Shown: one piece after another, positions 4,835 through 19,888 of the stretch
Numbering within the stretch: position 1 is the stretch's first letter
How the letters are laid out: each line of letters opens with the position of its first letter
Virus record (IMG/VR): IMGVR_UViG_3300030333_003331
Location: 1-21,574 of that record
Length of the DNA: 21,574 nucleotides
Direction: 5' to 3' (one strand)
From: a virus
Notes under the pieces: model-generated
What the model was told of the DNA's origin: nothing
What the model saw: only the letters and a program-made list of their open reading frames with translations
Databases searched by the model: none
Translations under genes and position numbers: made by a program

Positions 4835-5867
4835 TACACACTTTGGCGCCAGAGGCGACTCGCAAATTTTTTGTGACTACTTTTTCAAATTCTTCGATGA
4901 TGTATTCTTCCCGTATTGTGTAGAGAATAAGATTGATACCATTCTCCACTTGGGTGATTTCCTCGACCGAAGAAAATTTGTAAATTTCAATACCCTCAGT
5001 CAAGTTAGAACCAAAATTCTGGACAGACTAGATGAATTGGATATGGAAATCCACTGTCTTCTAGGAAACCATGACACATTCTATAAGAACACCAATGACC
5101 TGAATTCATTGAGAGAGGTGTTCAACAATTATCCCCGTTTTCATATTTACGAAAACCCAACGACTATTCAGTTGGGTGGTTGTAATTTTGGCATAGTGCC
5201 GTGGATTAACAATGAAAATAAAGATGAATCTCTAGACTTTATCAAAACATGCAATGCTCCGATTATCTGTGGTCACTTCGAAATGAATGGTTACCAAGTT
5301 CTGCGGGGAGTCAGTCATCAAAATGGTGGCCTTGATGATTCTCTGTTCAAACGATATGAAATGGTATTGTCCGGCCATTTCCATTGTAAGCAGACTAAGA
5401 ACAATGTCCACTATCTTGGAACTCAATATCAAATTACATTCGGTGATATTAATGAAGACAAGGGATTTCATGTCTTCGATACTGAAAATAGAAACTTGAC
5501 TTTCATTCAAAACCCGTATAGAATGTTCTATCAGTATGTGTGGAATGATAACGACATCACAAAAACGGAAGAGTTGCTTCACATGGACTGTGAGCATTTA
5601 GAACATGCTTTTGTTAAGGTATACATTGAAACAAAAAACAAACCATACATGTTTGAAAAGTTTCTAGACCGTCTATACAACAACAGTGTAAGCAATGTAA
5701 CTCTGATTGATGTTACCGAAGCAAATGACCTAGAGGAAGAAGAAATTGATGTGGGTCAGGACACTCTGAGTTTGATTTATGAAACAATCGATGAGATGGA
5801 TGTCGATGACAGAGATAAATTGAAAGGCCTGATTCGAGAGTTGTACATGGAGAGTCTTTCCCTATGA
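4812..5867 (+). CDS. 47: Recombination endonuclease subunit gp47 (Mre11/SbcD-like)
   Basis: The 351-residue nuclease half of the gp46/47 complex, which resects double-strand ends for recombination-dependent replication and degrades host DNA. All metallophosphoesterase motifs are present: NDTH (D8, H10), GDFLDRR (from 48), GNHD (85-88), CGHFEM (153-158) and SGHFH (187-191). T4 gp47 has 339 residues, so the length is normal. The C-terminal part (about 230-351) is the capping/partner-binding region. The gene overlaps gp55 by 23 nt and its stop overlaps the gp46 start (ATGA), implying coupled translation of the two subunits. Confidence 0.96.
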   Translation: MKIAILNDTHFGARGDSQIFCDYFFKFFDDVFFPYCVENKIDTILHLGDFLDRRKFVNFNTLSQVRTKILDRLDELDMEIHCLLGNHDTFYKNTNDLNSLREVFNNYPRFHIYENPTTIQLGGCNFGIVPWINNENKDESLDFIKTCNAPIICGHFEMNGYQVLRGVSHQNGGLDDSLFKRYEMVLSGHFHCKQTKNNVHYLGTQYQITFGDINEDKGFHVFDTENRNLTFIQNPYRMFYQYVWNDNDITKTEELLHMDCEHLEHAFVKVYIETKNKPYMFEKFLDRLYNNSVSNVTLIDVTEANDLEEEEIDVGQDTLSLIYETIDEMDVDDRDKLKGLIRELYMESLSL

Positions 5868-7582
5868 TTAAATTTCGTTATGTGAGATTCAAGAACTTTG
5901 GGTCTTTTGGTAATTACTATACTGAAATAGATTTCAACAAAGGTCAACAGGTACTCGTTGCAGGGAATAATGGCAACGGTAAATCTTTTGCGTTGTTGGA
6001 TTCTATTACCTTTGGTTTGTTTGGAAGACCGTTTAGGAAAGTCAACATTCCACAGTTAGTCAATAGCATCAACGAGAAAGACTGTGAAGTTCAAGTTGAA
6101 TTCAGCAATGGTAAGCACGAATACAAAATTGTTCGTGGTATGAAACCAAAGAAGTTTGAGATTTACAAGAATGGTAAATTGCTTGACCAAAACGCCAAGG
6201 CAAAAGATTACCAGAAGATGCTTGAAGAACAAATCTTGAAAATGAATTACAAGACATTCACACAAGTAGTGATTCTTGGTAGTTCATCTTTTATTCCGTT
6301 TATGCAGTTGTCTGCATCAGACCGAAGAGAAGTGATTGAAGATATCTTAGACATTCAAATTTTCTCTGTAATGAATGGACTGTTGAAAGCACGAATAACA
6401 CAACAGAAGGAATCTCTTCGTGAGGTTCAATACAACATTGATTTGTTGGAAGAGAAGTGTGAGGTACAGAAAGAATACTTGAAGAAGGTTCAGAACAATG
6501 CCGATGCCAATATCGAAAAGAATCTTGATATTGTCAAAGAGGAAACAAAGGCAATAGAAGAACTACAACAAACCATCAAAGACTTAAGTGAAGAAATTGA
6601 TGATATTGTTGTGGACACCGAACAACTGAAAACCACCAAGCAAAAAATCAAAACCTTTGAAGACCTCAAAAGCAAAATGGAAGGCAAGCAAAGTACACAC
6701 CAGAGAGATTTAGATTTCTATCAAAACAACGATTCGTGTCCTAAGTGTACACAGAAGATTACTAAGAGGTTGAAGGAAACCATGACCAATGTTGCTTCGG
6801 GTGAATTGCATATTCTTTCTGAAGGCCTTGAAAAGATGGAAACACAACTATCATCTTTGTACACAGAACTTGATGCGTTTGCTGAAATTGAAATGCAGGT
6901 TGCAAAATTACAAAAGCAGGTTTCTGGTCACCAATCAAAAATTGATTCTATTAACAATTACATCTCCAAGGTAAATGGTCAGACCAAAGAATTAATTGAG
7001 GGTAAGAAAAATATCAAAACCGAAATCGAGAAAGAAGAAGAGTACCGCGACAACTTAAACGAGCAAACGAATAAGAAAATTCAATTGGTGGAAGATAGAC
7101 ACTATGCGGATATCGCATATACACTGCTGAAAGATAATGGAATCAAAGCAAAGATAATTAAAGCATACTTGCCGGTTATCAACAAACTGATTAACAAGTA
7201 TCTCGCCGCAATGGATTTCTTTGCGAAGTTTAATCTAGATGAAAATTTCAATGAAACCATCAAGAGCAGACATCGTGATGATTTCTCATACATGTCATTT
7301 AGTGAAGGTGAGAAAATGAGAATCGACCTTGCCCTTCTTTTGACATGGAGGGAAATTGCGAGATTGAAGAATAGTGCCAATACGAATTTGTTAATCCTAG
7401 ATGAAGTTTTTGATTCTTCTTTGGATTCTTTTGGTACGGATGAGTTCTTACGACTCCTACATACTGTGAGCGGTTCGACAAATGTATTTGTGATTAGTCA
7501 CAAAGCGGACCAACTCGTTGATAAATTTCAAGAGTATATTACTTTTGAAAAGAAGAATGATTTCAGTCATATGAAGAGGTGA
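5864..7582 (+). CDS. 46: Recombination endonuclease subunit gp46 (Rad50/SbcC-like)
   Basis: The 572-residue ATPase partner of gp47 (T4 gp46 is 560 aa). It has the SMC-like layout: Walker A GNNGNGKS at 34-41, a long coiled coil broken by a zinc hook CPKC at 292-295, then the second coil, the ABC signature FSEGEKMRIDLALLL near 478-492 and Walker B LLILDEVFDSS near 507-517, followed by ISHK as the switch His. The ATPase head drives opening of the complex and the hook lets dimers tether DNA ends. It starts on the ATGA shared with gp47 and ends 3 bases before the first gene of the accessory cassette, so the cassette is probably co-transcribed with it. Confidence 0.96.
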   Translation: MIKFRYVRFKNFGSFGNYYTEIDFNKGQQVLVAGNNGNGKSFALLDSITFGLFGRPFRKVNIPQLVNSINEKDCEVQVEFSNGKHEYKIVRGMKPKKFEIYKNGKLLDQNAKAKDYQKMLEEQILKMNYKTFTQVVILGSSSFIPFMQLSASDRREVIEDILDIQIFSVMNGLLKARITQQKESLREVQYNIDLLEEKCEVQKEYLKKVQNNADANIEKNLDIVKEETKAIEELQQTIKDLSEEIDDIVVDTEQLKTTKQKIKTFEDLKSKMEGKQSTHQRDLDFYQNNDSCPKCTQKITKRLKETMTNVASGELHILSEGLEKMETQLSSLYTELDAFAEIEMQVAKLQKQVSGHQSKIDSINNYISKVNGQTKELIEGKKNIKTEIEKEEEYRDNLNEQTNKKIQLVEDRHYADIAYTLLKDNGIKAKIIKAYLPVINKLINKYLAAMDFFAKFNLDENFNETIKSRHRDDFSYMSFSEGEKMRIDLALLLTWREIARLKNSANTNLLILDEVFDSSLDSFGTDEFLRLLHTVSGSTNVFVISHKADQLVDKFQEYITFEKKNDFSHMKR

Positions 7583-7585
7583 TGT

Positions 7586-8248
7586 ATGGAATTTAATGAT
7601 TATGTTTTTGGTGATGCTATGGAATTGATGAAAGAGATTCCAGACAATTCAGTTGATTTGGTTTTCACTTCTATGCCAGATTTATCACAGACACCCTACG
7701 ACAAAACACCACAGGGAATTGCCGACTATCAAGCATTTCAGGCAGTTGCCGTAACAGAGATTACCCGAATGGTAAAACCAAACGGGTTTGTTGCAATCTG
7801 TCAAACAGATAGACGGGTCAATGGGGGAGTCCTATCAAACCACATGCACTATGCAAAATGTCTTGAGCAGAGAGGACTTAAGTACAAGGACCATAAAATC
7901 GTTGTTCGCAACGAAGTTGGAAAAAAAGACTTGTATCATTTCACATTTCAGCATATGATGTTGTTTTCCCAGAAAGGTGGTTTCAAGAGAGCAGGTGAAT
8001 TTATCAAAGACATCATCGTAGATAAACAAATGATGGTTGGTAATCAATCTGTTTGGTCACAGGATTTTTGCAAGATGGTAATTGAAGCACTTACAAAAGA
8101 GGGAGAGTTCGTTGTTGACCCATTCGCAGGAGTGGGTCCAGTGTTGTATGCCGCCAAGAGTCTAAATAGACAGTATTGGGGGGCAGAGTTGGAAGAAGAG
8201 TTCTACAATAGAGATTTCGAATGGTTTCAGAACCAATTACCGGTATGA
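7586..8248 (+). CDS. DNA methyltransferase-like protein with altered motif IV
   Basis: A 220-residue protein with the beta-class N4/N6 DNA methyltransferase layout: catalytic motif IV region first (DLVFTSMPDLS, from about residue 25), a target-recognition-like middle, and SAM-binding motif I last (VVDPFAGVGPVLYAAKSLNR, about 171-190). Motif I is intact. Motif IV is normally SPPY or DPPY; here it reads SMPD, so the second Pro position is kept but the first Pro and the aromatic residue that stacks on the target base are replaced. It may be inactive, act on another base or substrate, or serve as a partner of the second methyltransferase downstream (9113-10723). It overlaps the PLP-enzyme gene by ATGA. 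SAM-dependent family sure; activity unknown. Confidence 0.78.
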   Translation: MEFNDYVFGDAMELMKEIPDNSVDLVFTSMPDLSQTPYDKTPQGIADYQAFQAVAVTEITRMVKPNGFVAICQTDRRVNGGVLSNHMHYAKCLEQRGLKYKDHKIVVRNEVGKKDLYHFTFQHMMLFSQKGGFKRAGEFIKDIIVDKQMMVGNQSVWSQDFCKMVIEALTKEGEFVVDPFAGVGPVLYAAKSLNRQYWGAELEEEFYNRDFEWFQNQLPV

Positions 8249-9132
8249 AGTACAAAATAATCAATTTCAATACACCCGTTGAATTACACAATGGGATTTA
8301 TGTCAAAAGAGATGACCTCTTCCAACCATTCGGAGAGCATGGTGTAAATGGTGGAAAGGCCAGACAAGGTATTGAATTAATCCGAAGAAATCTAAAGACC
8401 ATTAAGAATTCTCACAAAAGCACCATTGTCACAACCACCAGTGTCCATTCCACGACAGGTGCGATTATGGCACAAGTTGCCAAACACTATAAACTGAAAT
8501 GTGTGATTTGTGTTGGTGGTACTAGCAAGGAAACTGTAGACCGGCACCATATGATGAGACTTGCAAAGCATTTTGGTGCAAAGATTGTTAATGTTTGTGG
8601 TACAGGAATGGCGGGCCCAGTTCTGAAGAGAATGGGTGATTATATTCGAGAGCATGAATATTTCGACGCGACCTTCAACAATAATGCTGATAGTTGTCCA
8701 GAAGCAATCCTTGATATGACAAAAGAACAAGTGGCGAACATTCCAGACAACTTAGACAACCTGATTGTACCTGTAGGCGGTGGAATGCAAATGGCATCAA
8801 TAATTCGTGGACTTACCGCGTATAAAAAGACCGTAAAGCGGGTTATTGGATGTCATGTCGGACCAGACAGAAGAGACAAAATTGACTACTTTATTAACCC
8901 ACTAGAATATCCTATTCTAGATTATGAAATGCACCCATTGAATACCACTTATGGTAAACCTGCACACGAATGGATTGATAAGAAACAAACCATCAAATTA
9001 GATGAAATTTATGAGTCCAAAGCGTGGCGATGGATGTTGGATAATATCAACTTCGAGGAAGAGAAAACTCTTTTCTGGAATGTTGGTCGGCGGTTGTTTG
9101 AAAAGGAAGTATATGCAAACTATGGAGTCTAG
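8245..9132 (+). CDS. PLP-dependent enzyme, ACC deaminase/D-cysteine desulfhydrase-like
   Basis: A 295-residue fold-type II (tryptophan synthase beta-like) PLP enzyme. YVKRDDLFQP (19-28) and NGGKARQG (35-42) match the family's 'KREDL...GNKxRK' block, so K38 is the likely Schiff-base lysine. TTTSVHSTTGA (63-73) parallels the SNH substrate-binding motif, with Val for Asn, and VPVGGGMQMAS (175-185) is the glycine-rich phosphate-binding loop. Family members deaminate ACC or release sulfide from D-cysteine, and related fold-II enzymes make threonine or diaminopropionate; the true substrate cannot be read here. Start 8245 uses the ATGA overlap with the methyltransferase-like gene; ATG 8221 would add 8 residues. 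It overlaps the next methyltransferase gene by 20 nt. Set between two methyltransferases, it may take part in DNA modification rather than host metabolism (inference). Confidence 0.78.
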   Translation: MKYKIINFNTPVELHNGIYVKRDDLFQPFGEHGVNGGKARQGIELIRRNLKTIKNSHKSTIVTTTSVHSTTGAIMAQVAKHYKLKCVICVGGTSKETVDRHHMMRLAKHFGAKIVNVCGTGMAGPVLKRMGDYIREHEYFDATFNNNADSCPEAILDMTKEQVANIPDNLDNLIVPVGGGMQMASIIRGLTAYKKTVKRVIGCHVGPDRRDKIDYFINPLEYPILDYEMHPLNTTYGKPAHEWIDKKQTIKLDEIYESKAWRWMLDNINFEEEKTLFWNVGRRLFEKEVYANYGV

Positions 9133-10723
9133 TACAGTACATCACCAACGAAATGTTTATTTGTTGGATGACCCTATTAACTGTTATTTTGAAGACCTTC
9201 TTGATATGGACCAGAAGGAATTTGAACAATGGATTATTGACCTTCGTAAGAGGGTGGTTGAAATTTGGGCAGAACATGATTGTCCACCCCGAGGTGGCAA
9301 GAACGACCCCGATATCATCAAGAACTTTAACAAGTTATCTGAGTACAATGTTGCCAAGTTTACCCATACAGACGAACTGTCTGAGGTTGAAGATGATGTA
9401 ATTATTAATAGTCGGCATCTGGGAACTGAGGTTGACCAGTGGTTCCCCCACATGTACAAGACTCGTATCAATTACAACGAGAAGGATGATGGGTATTCCA
9501 TCTACGATTTATTCGCTGATGACCGACATCTCCCACGAATGATTAAGTCCGGTACTCGACACTTCAAGAAAGATAGTTTCTACTATATGAGTGTGTGTGC
9601 GAGAAGGAACGATGCCAAAACGGCAATCATCAAAGTAAAGTCCGCCCACGAATGGTTAGAAGCGTTCGAAACACACAAGAACATTTTTAATGGTTATGAG
9701 TTTTGGTTGAACGAACAAAAGAACACCGGTGAAACATCCACGGGTTATGTGCAGGTTGACCAGAAGACCACTCTCTCATTCACTGCTGATGAAGTTCGTC
9801 AATTGTGGAAAGACGGTAGACTTACCAAGAGAAATATTTCAAACATCGACATTGATAATCTCTCGGATGATAACATTTATGTGATTCGTGTTTTCAAATT
9901 GAAAGCACACAAGTTGTTCCCGCATAGTTTTGTGGCATTTCGTGTAGGATATATTCAAGTTGCTCACAACTATCCTCCAATGACTGCTAAATACTTGTAT
10001 GAGCGATTCACCGAAAATCTCAAAGACCAAGAAGTTATTAACATCTATGACCCATCGGCTGGTTGGGGTGGTCGGATTCTTGGTGCTATGTCCGTTAGGG
10101 ATGATAGAACTATTAATTATATTGGGACTGACCCTAATCCTGACAACCATTTTCACGATAGCAATAGCAGTCGCTATTCTCATCTTGCTGATTTCTACAA
10201 TACCAAAACTTATCGTGGAAATCCTTTCTTCTCTCAAACGCACTCATATGAAATATTTTCAGATTGCGCCGAAGACATCGGGTTCAACCCCGACTTCCAA
10301 AAGTACAGAGGAAAACTCGACCTCATCTTCACTTCACCACCTTATTTCAACAGAGAGGCGTATAGCGAGGATGGGAACCAGTCGTACAAAAGGTACGGGT
10401 CGTCGTATGATTCGTGGATGGAAGGATTTCTTCGACCGACCCTAGAGACTTGTTTCGAGTATCTTCGACCAGACAGATATTTGCTTTGGAACATTGCCGA
10501 TTTGAAAGTAGGAAAAAATTATCTTCCTTTGGAAGAAGACTCGAAAAATATTTTGCTTGACCTTGGTATGGAATATAAATATACCTTGAAGATGGCAATG
10601 GTTGGAATGCCAGGACAGAATCGTGTTGATGAAGATGGTGTTCCCAAGTGTAAGAATTTTTGTAAAGTAAATGGAAAGTTCCATAAATTTGAACCCATCT
10701 ATGTGTTCTATAAGCCTAAGTGA
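9113..10723 (+). CDS. Large DNA methyltransferase (N4/N6 type) with extra N-terminal domain
   Basis: A 536-residue protein. The C-terminal 230 residues form an amino-methyltransferase: SAM motif I IYDPSAGWGGRILGA near residue 311, a second acidic strand IGTDPNPDNH, and the catalytic motif LIFTSPPYFNREAY near 404-417 with canonical TSPPY. The order I then IV differs from the beta-class neighbour. The first 300 residues match nothing I can name; they include a charged helix-rich start and a region with KSAHEWLEAFE and GYEFWLNEQK that could be a specificity domain. ATG 9113 is chosen because AAGGA stands 5 bases before it; ATG 9122 is also possible. No restriction endonuclease gene lies beside it, as usual for phage protective methyltransferases. 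Confidence 0.85.
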   Translation: MQTMESSTVHHQRNVYLLDDPINCYFEDLLDMDQKEFEQWIIDLRKRVVEIWAEHDCPPRGGKNDPDIIKNFNKLSEYNVAKFTHTDELSEVEDDVIINSRHLGTEVDQWFPHMYKTRINYNEKDDGYSIYDLFADDRHLPRMIKSGTRHFKKDSFYYMSVCARRNDAKTAIIKVKSAHEWLEAFETHKNIFNGYEFWLNEQKNTGETSTGYVQVDQKTTLSFTADEVRQLWKDGRLTKRNISNIDIDNLSDDNIYVIRVFKLKAHKLFPHSFVAFRVGYIQVAHNYPPMTAKYLYERFTENLKDQEVINIYDPSAGWGGRILGAMSVRDDRTINYIGTDPNPDNHFHDSNSSRYSHLADFYNTKTYRGNPFFSQTHSYEIFSDCAEDIGFNPDFQKYRGKLDLIFTSPPYFNREAYSEDGNQSYKRYGSSYDSWMEGFLRPTLETCFEYLRPDRYLLWNIADLKVGKNYLPLEEDSKNILLDLGMEYKYTLKMAMVGMPGQNRVDEDGVPKCKNFCKVNGKFHKFEPIYVFYKPK

Positions 10724-10732
10724 GGATTTATT

Positions 10733-11821
10733 ATGTCAAAGACTATTCGAGTAGATTATGTTTGGTTAGACGGATACACCCCTGTCCAAAATCTACGAAG
10801 CAAAATTAGAATTATGGAAGTTGATAAACTTCCAACCACCGCAAAGCAAATTCCTGAGTGGGGGTTTGATGGGTCAAGTACACAACAAGCGCCCGGTGAT
10901 GAAAGTGACCTCATTCTCAAACCAGTAAAATTGGTTAAGCAACCATTTGCAGAGGATGAAAAGGATAATTGGGAATCGTATATTGCACTATGTGAAGTTA
11001 TGCTTCCTGATGGGAAACCTCATGCTACCAACACCAGAGCAAAACTTCGAAAACTAAAGAAGAATGACATTATGTTCAGTGCAGAGCAAGAATATGTTTT
11101 GCTCGATGCAAGAACCATTAGACCCATTGGTTGGCCTATGGAAGAAGGTAATGTGACTTTCCCTCCACCACAGGGAAGATATTATTGTGGTGTTGGTGAT
11201 TTTGTTAAAGGTAGAAATTTTGTAGAAAAGTATACCGTTGTTTGCCACAAGGCAGGTCTTCACATTGAAGGTAACAACGCAGAAGTTATGCTTTCTCAAT
11301 GGGAGTACCAGTTGGGTCAATTGAATGCACTTGACCTTGCCGATGAAATGTGGATTGCTCGATATCTTGGTGACCGCTTGGGTGAGTATTACAACACAAT
11401 CATTTCGTATGACCCCAAACCAGTTGCGGGTGATTGGAACGGTTCTGGATGTCACATCAATTTCAGCACGAAGGAAATGCGTGACAATGGTTACAATGAG
11501 GATTATATCTCCGTTCTAATGGAACAGTTCGAAGAAGACCACGACGAGCATATTTCTTCCTGTGGTGTGGGCAACGAACGCCGATTGACCGGTGACCATG
11601 AAACATGTCACATCAATAAATTCAAATATGGTGTTGGTGATAGAAGTGCTTCAATTAGAATTCCAGCAAGTTGCAAAAAGGGTAACTTCTATATGGAAGA
11701 CCGAAGACCGGCAGCGAATGTGGATCCATATCAAGTCCTAACAACCCTGACTAATAGTATTGTGTCCGCACACAAAACTTTAAATTCAATGAAGGGTCAG
11801 GAAAAGGAAGTTGTCGCTTGA
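10733..11821 (+). CDS. glnII: Glutamine synthetase type II (eukaryotic/GlnII-like)
   Basis: A complete 362-residue GSII, which joins glutamate and ammonia with ATP. Signature blocks in order: WGFDGSST (43-50), SAEQEY with E118 and E120 as metal ligands, HIEGNNAEVMLSQWE (177-191, where the family usually has EVMPGQWE), GDWNGSGCHINFSTK (233-247), RRLTGDHET (283-291), YGVGDRSASIRIP (299-311) and EDRRPAANVDPY (322-333). Nothing is missing, so it is probably active. GSII enzymes act as decamers and lack the adenylylation control of GSI. A good GAGG ribosome site precedes the ATG. It follows the second methyltransferase by 9 bases. Role: either support of nitrogen supply in infected cells or glutamine/amine supply for the neighbouring PLP and modification enzymes; the sequence does not decide. 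Confidence 0.93.
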   Translation: MSKTIRVDYVWLDGYTPVQNLRSKIRIMEVDKLPTTAKQIPEWGFDGSSTQQAPGDESDLILKPVKLVKQPFAEDEKDNWESYIALCEVMLPDGKPHATNTRAKLRKLKKNDIMFSAEQEYVLLDARTIRPIGWPMEEGNVTFPPPQGRYYCGVGDFVKGRNFVEKYTVVCHKAGLHIEGNNAEVMLSQWEYQLGQLNALDLADEMWIARYLGDRLGEYYNTIISYDPKPVAGDWNGSGCHINFSTKEMRDNGYNEDYISVLMEQFEEDHDEHISSCGVGNERRLTGDHETCHINKFKYGVGDRSASIRIPASCKKGNFYMEDRRPAANVDPYQVLTTLTNSIVSAHKTLNSMKGQEKEVVA

Positions 11822-11846: not shown

Positions 11847-11852
11847 GTGACC

Positions 11853-12989
11853 ATGAAAGCAAAATACAACAAGTATGTGTCCAAGGCATACGGAACAGAA
11901 CCAACCTTGGAGAACTTGACCGAAAGCAATGACCTTACATGGGACTTGCACAAAGCGGTGAACTGGTATCGGTGCAATCCTGTTTCTTCAAAGAAAGAGA
12001 AGAAGTGGGTTCTGGACTATGTTATCCAAACTCTAGGTAAAACCGAAGTAGACAATTATTCGAATGGTACTAATTTTCAGTACGATTTCATTTCGTCATA
12101 TTGTCGTGTTGCCTTAAGAGTCCCAGAAGGTGTAACATTACCAGATGGATTCAAGGAAACCATCGATAAGAATCTCGCTAAGATTCAACGCACCACATCC
12201 AGAAAAAAGCAAGACCGCGATGCCGCGAAGGCGGCCGCCCCGAAGCAGACCAAGACCATTCAGGAAAGAATTGCTGAACAGGTTTGTGAATATATTGGGG
12301 ACATTGAACAGAAACTGGACGATGTTCTTGAGGGAATCGTTGCTCGTAAAGAAAATAACTTTGATGTTTCTGGATGGTTGAAGGGTCGAGAAGTCAAAGC
12401 GATGCAATCAAAAATGGTTGCGGAGTATCTTGAAAAGACTTATTGCGATGAGATTCGTGAACTTGTCACCGGCAATTGTCCCCAACTCAAAGAAGGTTAT
12501 GATTACATGACTCGACCACAACAGAAGAAGTGGTTGAAAACTCTTGAGCAAATTGTCAAGGACTGTTACGAGCATGGTCGCACTGCTGTGAAACCACGAA
12601 AGGCCCGTAAGCGTAAGGTCAAGACTCCTGAACAACTTGTTGCTAAGATGAAGTACGAGAAGAGCAACGAAGAATTCAAATTGACAAGTATCAAACCACA
12701 AGATATAATTGGTGCGTCGAAACTAATTGTGTTCAACACAAAGTATAGGCAGTTGACAATTTACCATGCAAAGGACTTGTCTGGTCTTACCGTAAAGGGT
12801 TCTACCCTACAGAACTTTTCGGAAGATAAGTCTGAAACACGCCGGTTGAGAAAACCACATGCGATGCTTCAGGAATCCGTAAAGGGTATTCGTGCTTTCA
12901 ACAAAGCATGGAATACAATTAAAACCAAGGCAACAAAACCAACTGGTCGTATTAACGACAAGACAATTATTCTAAAGGCGTTTTCATGA
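11853..12989 (+). CDS. Uncharacterised 378-residue protein
   Basis: I do not recognise a named family. Visible layout: an N-terminal domain (1-100) with the helical segment NDLTWDLHKAVNWYRCNP and DFISSYCRVALRVPEG; a basic and Ala-rich linker (112-133); a helical middle (135-245) with two Cys (145, 198); a strongly basic patch KPRKARKRKVK (247-257); and a beta-rich C-terminal part (275-378) with KLIVFNTKYRQLTIYHA and GSTLQNF. The basic patch suggests nucleic-acid contact. ATG 11853 is preferred over in-frame GTG 11847 because the promoter at 11818-11846 would start transcription at 11853. Its stop overlaps the RNase H start (ATGA), linking it to replication genes. Confidence 0.8.
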   Translation: MKAKYNKYVSKAYGTEPTLENLTESNDLTWDLHKAVNWYRCNPVSSKKEKKWVLDYVIQTLGKTEVDNYSNGTNFQYDFISSYCRVALRVPEGVTLPDGFKETIDKNLAKIQRTTSRKKQDRDAAKAAAPKQTKTIQERIAEQVCEYIGDIEQKLDDVLEGIVARKENNFDVSGWLKGREVKAMQSKMVAEYLEKTYCDEIRELVTGNCPQLKEGYDYMTRPQQKKWLKTLEQIVKDCYEHGRTAVKPRKARKRKVKTPEQLVAKMKYEKSNEEFKLTSIKPQDIIGASKLIVFNTKYRQLTIYHAKDLSGLTVKGSTLQNFSEDKSETRRLRKPHAMLQESVKGIRAFNKAWNTIKTKATKPTGRINDKTIILKAFS

Positions 12990-13813
12990 TTCTGCTTGAT
13001 AACAACCAATTGATTATTGCAAACATTTTCCAAACCATGAGACATGGTAGTGATATTAACGAAGACCTTCTTCGTCACATGTGCTTGAATACATATCGAA
13101 TGTATCGAACAAAGTTCAAATCCTATGGTGACTTGGTTATTTGTCAAGACTCTGGTAATTGCTGGCGCCGTGACATCTTCGAATACTACAAGAAGAATCG
13201 TAAGAAGTCACAGGATAAATCTGACTTTGATTGGGATGCTATCTTCAATTCTTTGTCCAAGATTCGTGATGAGATTGTAGAAAATTTCCCATACAAGAGT
13301 ATCGCTGTTCCACGAACGGAAGCAGACGATATTATTGCTGTACTATGTAAGCACTATCACGATAAAGAGAAAATTGTAATTGTTTCATCTGACAAGGATT
13401 TTCAACAACTACAGAGATTCCCAAATATCAAACAATACAGTCCCACGAAAAAGAAGTTCTTGGTGTGTAAAGACCCTGAGAAGTTTTTGCTTGAGCATAT
13501 TCTCAAGGGTGATACTTCGGATGGCATTCCTAACATTCTTTCCGACGATGATGTGTTCATGGTTGAAGGTAAACGACAGAAACCTTGTGGTGCCAAGAAA
13601 ATTGAAAAACTAATTAACGAGTCCGAACTGAGGGAAACCCCAAACTGGAATCGAAATCAAATGCTTGTTGACTTGTCTCTCATTCCAGAGGAATATGAAG
13701 AGAAAATTCTAACAACATTCGACACTGCTGTCTGCGGAGACAGGAGTAAACTATTTAACTATTTTGTAAAACACAAACTCAATAAACTTATCGGGAGCAT
13801 CGAAGAGTTTTGA
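12986..13813 (+). CDS. rnh: RNase H / 5'-3' flap exonuclease (T4 Rnh-like)
   Basis: A 275-residue member of the FEN/T4 RNase H family (T4 protein 305 aa), which removes RNA primers from lagging-strand fragments and cleaves flaps. The acidic active-site residues are visible: D5, RTEADD (E112, D114, D115), SSDKDF (D136, D138) and GDTSDGIPN (D176, D179), the last also being the start of the helix-hairpin-helix DNA grip. The gene begins on the ATGA shared with the preceding unknown gene. It lies before the clamp/clamp-loader block, a sensible place for a lagging-strand enzyme. Slightly short C-terminus relative to T4. Confidence 0.9.
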   Translation: MILLDNNQLIIANIFQTMRHGSDINEDLLRHMCLNTYRMYRTKFKSYGDLVICQDSGNCWRRDIFEYYKKNRKKSQDKSDFDWDAIFNSLSKIRDEIVENFPYKSIAVPRTEADDIIAVLCKHYHDKEKIVIVSSDKDFQQLQRFPNIKQYSPTKKKFLVCKDPEKFLLEHILKGDTSDGIPNILSDDDVFMVEGKRQKPCGAKKIEKLINESELRETPNWNRNQMLVDLSLIPEEYEEKILTTFDTAVCGDRSKLFNYFVKHKLNKLIGSIEEF

Positions 13814-17903: not shown

Positions 17904-18842
17904 ATGAGTAATGAATATTTGTGGGTTGAAAAATATCGACCACGAACAATTGACGATTGTGTTCTTCCCGAATCAATCAAAAAAACATTTAAAGACATGG
18001 TAGATTCCGGTGAAGCACAGAATCTACTTTTGTCTGGTGGTGCGGGGTGTGGAAAAACCACAGTTGCCCGGGCGTTGTGTCATGAACTTGATACAGAGTA
18101 TATCATCATCAACTGTTCGGAAGATGGAAACATCGATACACTCCGAACTAAGATTCGAAACTTTGCCAGCACAGTTTCAATCTCTGGTGCAAAGAAGGTG
18201 GTCATCCTTGATGAGTTTGACTACTCGAATGCACAATCTACGCAACCTGCGTTGCGTGGTTTCATTGAAGAGTTTTCTTCTAACTGTCGGTTTATCTTGA
18301 CATGTAACTTCAAGAACCGAATCATCGAACCCCTACATTCTCGGTGTACCAATGTTGAGTTTAAGATTCCCAACAGTGAAAAACCAGAACTTGCAAAGCA
18401 GATTTTGGCAAGACTCACAACCATTCTAAATGCAGAGAATGTTCCGTTTGATGATAGGGTTCTTGCTCAGTTGATTCTCAAGCATTTCCCCGACTTCCGA
18501 AGAATCATCAATGAACTTCAACGGTATTCGATTTCAGGAACAATCGATGCCGGAATTCTTTCCAATCTAGGTGAGATTCAATTACAGCAATTGATTACCG
18601 CCATGAAAGGTAAAGACTTCACAACACTTCGTAAGTGGGCAGTTGACAATCTAGACAACGACCACACACGAATCTTTCGTAAGATTTATGACGGGTTGTA
18701 CGAATCATTTGAGGCAAGTTCGATTCCCGCCGCCGTCTTAATTCTTGCTGACTATCAAGACAAGGCATCGCGTGTTGCCGACCAAGAGATTAATCTGACT
18801 GCTTGCCTAACAGAATTGATGATGGAGTGTACAGTTAAATGA
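17904..18842 (+). CDS. 44: Clamp loader large subunit gp44
   Basis: A 312-residue AAA+ ATPase, homologue of T4 gp44 (319 aa), four copies of which with one gp62 open the gp45 ring and load it at primer ends. Visible motifs: WVEKYRPRTIDDCVLP (7-22), Walker A SGGAGCGKT (44-52), Walker B VVILDEFDYS (99-108) and the arginine-finger SRC motif (146-148). It begins 8 bases after gmd with a GTGAGG ribosome site partly within the gmd stop region. Its TGA stop overlaps the next start (ATGA). Confidence 0.96.
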   Translation: MSNEYLWVEKYRPRTIDDCVLPESIKKTFKDMVDSGEAQNLLLSGGAGCGKTTVARALCHELDTEYIIINCSEDGNIDTLRTKIRNFASTVSISGAKKVVILDEFDYSNAQSTQPALRGFIEEFSSNCRFILTCNFKNRIIEPLHSRCTNVEFKIPNSEKPELAKQILARLTTILNAENVPFDDRVLAQLILKHFPDFRRIINELQRYSISGTIDAGILSNLGEIQLQQLITAMKGKDFTTLRKWAVDNLDNDHTRIFRKIYDGLYESFEASSIPAAVLILADYQDKASRVADQEINLTACLTELMMECTVK

Positions 18843-19888
18843 TTGACATGCTTCTGAAAAACCAAGAGTATATTTTCTACTTGGTCGCTATTATGATTAT
18901 TGGTGGTGTCGTTCGTGACCATTTCTATCTGCATGATGTGTTTGGTATTCTCATTCGCAAGGTAAAGTCGAAGCGACTTGTGCTTGCGTTGGTTTCACTA
19001 TTCGGTGGTGTGTTGCCCATTCCGGGCAGAGTAACCACCTCTGCGGGTATTCTTGATTCGCTTGCACCATCGAAGGAGAAGTGCAGTACATGCCGACATA
19101 AGTTTGGTATCATCGACTACCTAGCATCTCACCACTATTACCTGTGGTCACCACTGGAAAAGACAATCATCATGCCCATTGCGGCATTGGGTCTGACCTA
19201 TGGTGCGGTTGTCGGAATGCTTTGGCCTCTTCTCGCGGTAACGATTGCGTATATCACATACTACATCATGTTCCGAATCAAGGAACAGGACATTCAACTT
19301 AGTCTTGATGCAGGTTTTGATATTCACAAACCTCGTTTGTTTTATGGTGCATTGCCACTTCTGTTGGGTATTGCTTCCATCACACCTTGGGTCGGTCTGG
19401 AACCACAGTGGGCGTTTAGTGCTTTAGCAATTTACTACCTCTGTCTGTCGAAGACCTTCGCACTTGGTGATATTTTATCATACATCAAGTGGCCTTTGGT
19501 AGCAACTCTCGCGGTTGTTATTGTCGCATCGAATTATGCAAAGAGTTACTATGGTGAAATTGAAGTCTTCCTTGAGAATTCTCAAGTGCTTGACATTAAC
19601 ACCACAGTTGGATTCGTTGCGATTTCAGTTCTGGCATTTACCTCTGCGTTCTGTCTTGGTTCGTCGAGTAAGTTCTCTGGACTTGTGGTGATTCTATCAT
19701 CCGTGTATGGTCTGGAATACTTTGTGTGGTTCTTCGCACTTGAGTATTCTGGTTACCTTGTAAGTCCTACCCACAAGTGTATGCACATCGGTCGTATGTA
19801 CTTCAATACACCGTGGGGAGAATATGCAAAAGCATTAGGAATTTGGGTTGCACTACTACTGGTGGCCGGGGTATACTCTCTCGTATGA
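18839..19888 (+). CDS. Polytopic membrane protein, DUF401-like
   Basis: A 349-residue integral membrane protein with about nine to ten hydrophobic segments (roughly 12-26, 46-62, 108-124, 126-146, 167-184, 190-205, 216-232, 254-273, 279-301, 330-348). LFGGVLPIPGRVTTSAGILDS (54-74, in part) and the late YLVSPTHKCMHIGRMYF (307-322) resemble the paired conserved blocks of DUF401-type permeases, whose transport substrate is unknown. A cytosolic-looking loop carries KCSTCRHK (81-88), a possible metal or redox site. It is locked by ATGA overlaps between gp44 and gp62, genes that in T4 are adjacent and co-translated. The family call rests on memory of motifs and is moderate; membrane nature is certain. 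Confidence 0.75.
   Translation: MIDMLLKNQEYIFYLVAIMIIGGVVRDHFYLHDVFGILIRKVKSKRLVLALVSLFGGVLPIPGRVTTSAGILDSLAPSKEKCSTCRHKFGIIDYLASHHYYLWSPLEKTIIMPIAALGLTYGAVVGMLWPLLAVTIAYITYYIMFRIKEQDIQLSLDAGFDIHKPRLFYGALPLLLGIASITPWVGLEPQWAFSALAIYYLCLSKTFALGDILSYIKWPLVATLAVVIVASNYAKSYYGEIEVFLENSQVLDINTTVGFVAISVLAFTSAFCLGSSSKFSGLVVILSSVYGLEYFVWFFALEYSGYLVSPTHKCMHIGRMYFNTPWGEYAKALGIWVALLLVAGVYSLV

Follow-up and report, generated by a model that had tools for sequence, protein, structure and literature searches.

In Ackermannviridae and M6-like phages, 5-hydroxymethyl-dU (5-hmdU) is hypermodified by a pathway that includes ADDT/aGPT-Pplase enzymes, a 5-hmdU DNA kinase and a PLP enzyme. In Ackermannviridae, the role proposed for the PLP enzyme is to decarboxylate serine once it is attached to hydroxymethyl-dU. 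Among the named 5-hmdU transformation genes is orf169 of Dickeya phage PP35 (PMC6336734). The CmoA/CmoX/CmoY 5-carboxymethylcytosine-glycine system, present in the marine cyanophage Synechococcus phage S-B43 and in many other phages, demonstrates a second strategy, in which carboxymethylation is followed by ATP-dependent amide ligation; its authors found no candidate N6/N4 carboxymethyltransferase (PMC12783734). Finally, phages encode ParB-methyltransferase proteins such as gp1 of Erythrobacter phage R6L, which is listed only as a DNA modification methylase, its PLP domain going unmentioned in the passages found in that paper (PMC5463345).

The stretch of DNA analysed here (the window) is a virus record of 21.6 kb. 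It represents a T4-like fragment and carries uvsW, gp47, gp46, RNase H, gp45, gp44, gp62 and regA. Downstream of gp46 lie four plus-strand ORFs that encode a variant methyltransferase (MT1), a PLP enzyme, a second methyltransferase (MT2) and a glutamine synthetase (GS) (table 1). The original prediction had described them as one tight run, and the genes proved real, with the predicted coordinates, overlaps of 4 nt and 20 nt and a gap of 9 nt. The order MT1-PLP-MT2-GS recurs in 12 further distinct contigs at protein identities of 35-62%, and selection on each of the four genes is purifying (dN/dS about 0.02-0.24), which together put the arrangement beyond chance. When PADLOC defence models were searched, only the methyltransferases matched, as generic Type II or orphan MTases; the PLP enzyme and GS had no match.

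Table 1. Features of the gp46-RNase H interval of the window.
Feature	Position	Strand	Description	Basis
gp46 (SbcC-like)	5864..7582	+	upstream border of slot	phrog_77 1.7e-165
MT1	7586..8248	+	short (220 aa) beta-class N4/N6 amino-methyltransferase fold, variant catalytic motif	
MT1 motif IV	7667..7693	+	TSMPDLSQT; canonical is [DNS]PP[YFW]	
MT1 motif I (SAM binding)	8117..8143	+	DPFAGVGPV, kept	alignment A5
PLP enzyme	8245..9132	+	fold-type-II (PALP) enzyme, phage DNA-modification branch	PF00291 2.1e-13; phrog_3650 1.6e-34
Predicted PLP Schiff-base lysine	8356..8358	+	NGGK	invariant in 25 aligned sequences
PLP loop	8437..8460	+	TSVHSTTG in place of canonical fold-type-II Asn loop	alignment
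PLP C-terminal signature	9070..9087	+	LFWNVG, signature of phage branch (DcyD: LFIHTGG)	alignment
MT2	9113..10723	+	536 aa; uncharacterised N-terminal half, C-terminal N4/N6-type catalytic domain	
MT2 motif I	10049..10072	+	DPSAGWGG	alignment A1
MT2 motif IV	10331..10357	+	TSPPYFNRE	invariant in alignment A1
GS	10733..11821	+	full-length GlnII-type glutamine synthetase; probable accessory	NF041605 1.3e-104
T4-type RNase H	12986..13813	+	downstream border of slot	PF02739 and PF09293

We propose that MT1, the PLP enzyme and MT2 work as one module that hypermodifies DNA bases after replication, and we give this reading a probability of roughly 55%. In its favour, the genes are linked, their families and conserved catalytic motifs can be read from sequence, and they are under purifying selection; a cultured phage carries a methyltransferase-PALP fusion, and the PLP branch is otherwise found in 5-hydroxymethyl-dU hypermodification loci. 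In contigs retrieved by searching with MT1 only, the PLP gene directly adjoined MT1 in every case (24/24 viral contigs). A second, distant PLP (PALP) family adjoins the same MT2 in many T4-like contigs, and a methyltransferase was found near 71 of its 82 full-flank loci (48/54 viral, 23/28 from bacterial genomes), compared with a background of 1 hit in 263 kb. Roughly a hundred further phage and prophage contigs show the pairing of PLP and methyltransferase genes. In ZS04_7 of the cultured Erythrobacter phage ZS04, a DNA methyltransferase is split by a second-family PALP domain, which lies between its motif-I and motif-IV halves, while in the cultured Microcystis phage Mae-JY30 a PALP gene directly follows a methyltransferase-like gene. 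Scattering of the genes, which according to the original prediction would speak against a cassette, was looked for in homologous phages, and MT1-PLP-MT2 stays linked. A literature search, with subscription papers apparently outside its reach, returned no description of PLP-methyltransferase DNA modification.

On sequence evidence, the window PLP enzyme belongs to a phage-specific branch together with the Ackermannviridae thymidine-hypermodification PLP enzyme. Phage PLPs share derived motifs and separate from E. coli DcyD, CysK, CysM and IlvA with support of 100/98, in a tree where these four enzymes are the only outgroup and long branches meet. The family phrog_3650 is common to the window enzyme, PP35 orf169 (31.7% identity to it over 206 aa) and Montesquieu MONT_41. 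MONT_41 adjoins aGPT-Pplase2, and the homologs L110/L111 adjoin ADDT, HMUDK and a TS-family gene. The alignment in which the predicted Schiff-base lysine is invariant also takes in the four E. coli enzymes. In fold-type-II enzymes the Asn loop contacts the substrate carboxylate and PLP; here the window reads SVHSTTG, as against QSNH in DcyD, SGN in CysK and AGNH in IlvA.

MT1 matched Pfam N6_N4_Mtase (PF01555, 4e-15), and Foldseek matched its AF2 model (pLDDT 86) to the DNA N4-cytosine methyltransferase 8s9m (9.5e-18). In fold and motif I it agrees with the N4/N6 amino-methyltransferases of PF01555, but its motif IV departs from their pattern. This motif reads TS[C/M]PD[L/I]SQT in 24/24 homologs, confirming that MT1 was rightly called a variant. 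In a sister clade (L083-L095) the dN/dS of MT1 is about 0.03, placing it among the most constrained genes of that clade. A pattern-limited scan of bacterial genomes found no MT1.

The C-terminus of MT2 matched PF01555 at 4.3e-5, with a whole-protein score of 24.0 just below the curated cut-off of 26.7, and its invariant TSPPY conforms to the motif IV pattern. The N-terminal half had no sequence match in Pfam, PHROG, NCBIfam or PDB, and an AF2 model (pLDDT 74) used for the question of this half matched only Rossmann methyltransferases (e.g. Trm11) and viral N4-cytosine methyltransferases. MT2 is conserved in the gp46-gp45 slot, where 22 full-length sequences share 56-84% identity with that of the window; the phage collection yielded no full-length homolog. 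At 17 loci MT2 and GS occur without the PLP gene. A whole-record generic PF00291 search missed the known PALP in record G022, so alignment A7 and tblastn were used instead, and these detected no PLP homolog in a 123-kb record with MT2 and GS. Given such loci, MT2 can act without the PLP enzyme, which counts against the module reading.

GS carries Gln-synt_C (2.8e-18) and Gln-synt_N (1.6e-11) domains, matches yeast GS 3fky (1.8e-84) and retains 11/11 of the catalytic and metal-, ATP- and glutamate-binding positions examined. Many relatives have it but neither PLP nor MT1, it was seen in only 3/80 loci of the second PLP family, and most PLP-MT2 loci lack it. GS is thus probably an accessory and not part of the core. 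The predicted DNA-modification cassette is well supported for MT1-PLP-MT2, given the near-perfect linkage, the gene fusion and the PLP branch in common with hypermodification loci, but not for GS. We also set aside GS as a DNA-acting amide ligase, for which CmoY offers a precedent, since the enzyme of the window is canonical and most PALP-MT2 loci have no GS; the degenerate GS of a sister clade is why the idea still figures among the rival readings below.

A simple alternative is that the genes have independent functions, the methyltransferases providing protective methylation while auxiliary metabolic genes for the PLP enzyme (a deaminase or desulfhydrase) and GS set ammonia free and assimilate it again. 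The intact active site of the window GS fits this, as do its fusion to a thioredoxin/glutaredoxin-like domain in many relatives and its position in another phage lineage, with a primase-like gene on one side and ThyX-like and RNR-like genes on the other, a nucleotide-metabolism context. We nevertheless consider it unlikely. The PLP gene keeps company with methyltransferases and not with GS, a PALP-methyltransferase fusion exists, and the PLP enzyme lacks the canonical Asn loop and clusters with DNA-modification PLPs. Moreover, the L083-L095 clade retains MT1-PLP-MT2, yet its GS homolog has lost E196, E203, H253 and R324 (human GS numbering). Without these residues but still under purifying selection, this homolog is no longer a normal GS.

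Two described routes were searched for and rejected. The TS-family dUMP hydroxymethylase (PF00303) was absent from all cassette and PALP-MT2 records searched, which reach 174 kb and may be fragments, and the amino acid:DNA transferase (PF18724, ADDT/aGPT-Pplase) was absent from related records; control G022 was positive for both. Phrog_3271 was likewise absent from related records, in a search run without a positive control. Thymidine-type hypermodification was rejected on these three absences, no hydroxymethyluridine route having been found in the related records. Enzymes of this PLP branch follow an amino acid:DNA transferase in the pathway known for them, so the failure to find one here counts against the module reading. 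The carboxy-SAM route was rejected because CmoA (TIGR00740) was not found in 21 related records, although host CmoA could substitute.

Under the module reading, MT2, aided in this lineage by the variant MT1, would flip a base and transfer to it a SAM-derived group. As the motif of MT2 is of the SPPY type, the target is probably an exocyclic amino group, e.g. cytosine N4. As the searches yielded neither a hydroxymethylase nor an amino acid:DNA transferase, SAM itself, through its 3-amino-3-carboxypropyl arm, would be the most economical source of the amino acid, a step we suggest by analogy; no feature of the sequence points to such a donor, which counts against the module reading. The PLP enzyme would next work on the alpha-amino-acid moiety. 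Decarboxylation, as proposed for its Ackermannviridae counterpart, would be the simplest reaction, and the amine-bearing base so formed would block host nucleases. GS, encoded next door, would most likely supply glutamine for nucleotide synthesis and take no part in the base chemistry. In its most specific form, this proposal would amount to an amino-acid-type hypermodification free of hydroxymethyl-pyrimidines and widespread among T4-like phages not yet cultured and among prophages of alphaproteobacteria. A methyltransferase-fold enzyme would move the 3-amino-3-carboxypropyl group of SAM to an ordinary base, and decarboxylation by a PLP enzyme, in some cases part of the same protein, would yield an aminopropyl base. 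We hold this form to be doubtful as it stands.

SAM is itself an alpha-amino acid and usable by PLP enzymes. The PLP enzyme might then never touch DNA and instead turn SAM into an unusual donor, e.g. decarboxylated SAM, for the methyltransferases; the location of the ZS04_7 PALP inside a methyltransferase domain would suit such a cofactor hand-over. We think this quite unlikely, because the relatives in 5-hmdU loci adjoin enzymes that put amino acids on DNA, favouring a DNA-bound substrate, and PALP has no sequence feature showing SAM binding.

Very unlikely, in our view, is a single pathway of all four genes, in which the GS-like enzyme amidates a carboxylate that a methyltransferase has put on the base as part of a carboxymethyl or aminocarboxypropyl group, as in CmoX/CmoY or Mom-type carbamoylmethyl adenine. 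The phage precedent for carboxymethylation with amide ligation, the four-gene order kept in 12 other contigs and the constrained but degenerate GS homolog of one clade all speak for it. Against it, the window GS retains every GlnII residue examined, GS is missing from most PALP-MT2 loci and present in many without PLP, and the related records yielded no CmoA, even if the host could supply the donor. In addition, DNA is unlikely to fit into the active site of GS, a narrow channel between subunits. That MT1 is dead or regulatory and the PLP enzyme a moonlighting partner, leaving ordinary N4/N6 methylation by MT2 only, would agree with the missing PPY core of MT1, the canonical motif IV of MT2 and the occurrence of MT2 without PLP, but is highly improbable given the strong constraint on MT1, its intact motif I, its invariant altered motif and the invariant PLP lysine.

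If the module reading is true, an unrecognised hypermodification by methyltransferases and a PLP enzyme, bypassing hydroxymethyl-pyrimidines, would be in use in many T4-like phages of the environment and many prophages of alphaproteobacteria. This would widen the known set of DNA-modification donors and explain conserved 'methylase' genes annotated as ordinary. The idea is testable now, since cultured Erythrobacter and Microcystis phages carry the genes fused or adjacent.

Compared with known systems, the window GS resembles GlnII-type enzymes in length and in all examined catalytic residues, but is phage-encoded, scores below the NCBIfam cut-off (350 vs 500 bits) and shares about 50% identity or less with the GS of other phage lineages. 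As in CmoA/CmoX/CmoY, a methyltransferase-fold enzyme would add a handle that a second enzyme extends, and an amide-forming enzyme lies nearby. However, MT2 has SPPY (TSPPYFNRE) and not the C5-type SPPC, MT1 has neither (TSMPDLSQT), and the partner is a PLP enzyme where the Cmo system has an AMP-forming ligase. With the ParB-methyltransferases R6L gp1 and ZS04_7, the locus shares a methyltransferase with an SPPY/CPPY motif IV linked to PALP, which in the window is a separate gene of another PLP sub-branch. In relation to 5-hmdU hypermodification, the window has two methyltransferases where that pathway has a TS-family hydroxymethylase and ADDT. The PLP enzymes of the two are homologous, both are sited with DNA-modifying genes, and both probably act on an amino acid attached to DNA.

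We confirmed that two DNA methyltransferase-type genes (MT1 and MT2), a fold-type-II (PALP) pyridoxal-phosphate enzyme gene (PLP) and a glutamine synthetase gene (GS) form one tight run after gp46; coordinates, both overlaps and the gap agree with the original prediction. The 21.6 kb window, from a virus record, contains T4-like replication genes, and its closest isolates by gp46, among those listed, are Synechococcus T4-like phages (46-48% identity). In S-CREM1, the nearest of them, other genes occupy the gp46-gp45 interval, and the phage collection has no record with a full-length MT2.

Genes of the cassette in the window
Gene	Position	Strand	Remark
MT1	7586-8248	+	first gene after gp46
PLP	8245-9132	+	overlaps MT1 by 4 nt
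MT2	9113-10723	+	overlaps PLP by 20 nt
GS	10733-11821	+	9-nt gap after MT2

A search of viral contigs by MT1 alone bore out the expected co-occurrence, PLP lying immediately downstream of MT1 in 24/24 good contigs; apart from the window, 12 distinct contigs have the complete MT1-PLP-MT2-GS order. The MT1-PLP unit moves as a block, since in four loci (L076-L079) it adjoins methyltransferase genes at sites away from gp46. A GS search of viral contigs gave 47 loci, in many of which GS, usually with MT2, occupies the interval from gp46 to RNase H or gp45. MT2 may also act by itself, because 17 loci have MT2 and GS without the window-type PLP (some with a second PALP family), and no PLP homologue of either type was detected in a 123-kb record having MT2 and GS. 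In a sister clade (L083-L095), dN/dS was about 0.02-0.06 for MT1 and MT2, about 0.05-0.16 for PLP, with values for GS reaching 0.24; comparing the window with its nearest relatives gave about 0.07-0.17.

Several neighbouring genes were also recorded. One cassette has a small protein, SET-domain-like by inspection, between PLP and MT2 (L047:7921-8358), and one GS locus lacks MT2 and has a short gene after gp46 that is adenine-methylase-like by inspection (NPPYG motif; L032:4273-4800). Directly 3' of the window GS is a conserved gene (11847-12989; phrog_11903, 2.2e-68), retained at the same position in the sister clade at 33-38% identity. The membrane protein encoded at 18839-19888 has 97% identity to that of the related contig L003, most neighbours being at 70-83%, which suggests recent exchange or strong constraint.

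In the methyltransferase pair (METHYLTRANSFERASES; MT1/MT2), MT1 has a beta-class fold (AF2 pLDDT 86), its model matching a DNA N4-cytosine methyltransferase in Foldseek (9.5e-18), with motif I intact and motif IV reading TS[CM]PD[LI]SQT in 24/24. The MT2 motifs TSPPYFNRE and DPS[AS]GWGG are essentially invariant over 22 sequences; its N-terminal half has no known relative, and its structure model matched methyltransferase domains only.

The window PLP is a PALP protein whose best profile is phrog_3650 (1.6e-34), the family of the Ackermannviridae PLP proteins and of MONT_41, while the best bacterial NCBIfam model scored far worse (1.2e-9). To this family belongs orf169 of Dickeya phage PP35 (31.7% identity over 206 aa), counted among the genes for 5-hydroxymethyl-dU (5-hmdU) transformation (PMC6336734). 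MONT_41, of phage Montesquieu, neighbours aGPT-Pplase2 and nucleotide kinases, and distant homologues in L110 (neighbours Pfam-checked) and L111 (similar by inspection) are clustered with genes for an amino acid:DNA transferase (ADDT; PF18724) and a 5-hmdU kinase and with a gene of the TS family. A maximum-likelihood tree placed 21/21 phage sequences apart from E. coli DcyD, CysK, CysM and IlvA (support 100/98); with these four bacterial enzymes as outgroup and long branches meeting, it is good but not final evidence of separation. The phage proteins lack the Asn loop and share Y[ED]xK and, at the C-terminus, an FW motif (FWxVG in most). Five further homologues (L102-L104, L108, L109) adjoin a radical-SAM-type gene, most of them having a ParB-like gene as well (L102 checked by Pfam), possibly a further DNA-modification module in other phages.

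At eight loci a different PALP gene (phrog_7093) lies just upstream of GS and MT2. A scan with the family alignment found at least 545 matching viral stretches, from which we retained 80 loci; in bacterial genomes it found 38 loci, the majority titled alphaproteobacterial. Flanks of 1.7 kb or more on each side were available for 82 loci; a related methyltransferase is nearby in 71 of these (48/54 viral, 23/28 genome), the background being one methyltransferase match in 263 kb outside these loci. In Erythrobacter phage ZS04 (L116:2326-4764, ZS04_7) the PALP domain, at about residues 400-625, sits inside a methyltransferase, between its motif-I half (DPFAGG) and its motif-IV half (FSCPPY); the N-terminus is probably ParB-like, judging by its similarity to L102, which matches PF02195. 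ZS04_7 is annotated only as a methylase, and its counterpart in Erythrobacter phage R6L, gp1 (KY006853), is given in the R6L paper only as a DNA modification methylase. In Microcystis phage Mae-JY30, the PALP gene is directly 3' of a methyltransferase-like gene.

The window GS is GlnII-like, with 11/11 examined catalytic or binding positions intact. In another lineage (L007, L009, L019, L041, L045) GS is flanked by a primase-like gene on one side and by ThyX-like and RNR-like genes on the other (named by inspection), and the sister clade, which keeps MT1-PLP-MT2, has a GS homologue lacking E196, E203, H253 and R324 (human numbering) that is still under purifying selection. Because of its intactness, these neighbours elsewhere and this degeneration, the window GS is most simply a glutamine-supply gene and not a core step. 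Of the four-gene modification cassette first proposed, the MT1-PLP-MT2 part is supported; GS, intact and present at 3/80 second-family loci, is probably an accessory. The residues lost in the sister clade are metal-binding Glu/His and an active-site Arg, as in a repurposed or pseudo-enzyme GS. About 20 relatives carry an N-terminal CGWC thioredoxin/glutaredoxin-like domain on GS (~110-130 aa, weak Glrx-like/thioredoxin matches, about 1e-4; L010, L016-L018, L020-L023, L025, L027-L032, L034, L035, L037-L039, L046).

Linkage, fusion, families, motifs and selection are what we observed for the module. For its chemistry, we infer that MT2 (with MT1 in the window lineage) would put a SAM-derived group onto a base, after which the PLP enzyme, by analogy with that of Ackermannviridae, would remodel an amino-acid moiety. 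The simplest proposal needing no other donor would be transfer of an aminocarboxypropyl group and its subsequent decarboxylation. The PLP enzyme might instead make a SAM analogue as donor. Protective methylation beside unrelated metabolic genes has the intact GS on its side, and facing it the linkage of PLP to methyltransferases and the ZS04 fusion. Plain methylation only would suit the loci in which MT2 has no window-type PLP, and faces the invariance of the altered MT1 motif. An amidation pathway of all four genes has their shared order in its favour, and against it the intact window GS and the lack of GS at most PALP-MT2 loci. Neither a TS-family hydroxymethylase nor ADDT was found in cassette records or PALP-MT2 records up to 174 kb, a positive control being detected, and 21 records yielded no CmoA; many searched records are fragments, so these absences, like that of CmoA, are not proof.

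PLP-dependent DNA hypermodification is already known, as is carboxymethyltransferase-based DNA modification (PMC12783734). In the literature, incompletely covered, we found no description of a PLP enzyme linked and fused to DNA methyltransferases where the hydroxymethyl route is lacking. Whereas known PLP hypermodification follows that route, the window PLP is tied to methyltransferases, with no TS-family hydroxymethylase or ADDT in the records searched.
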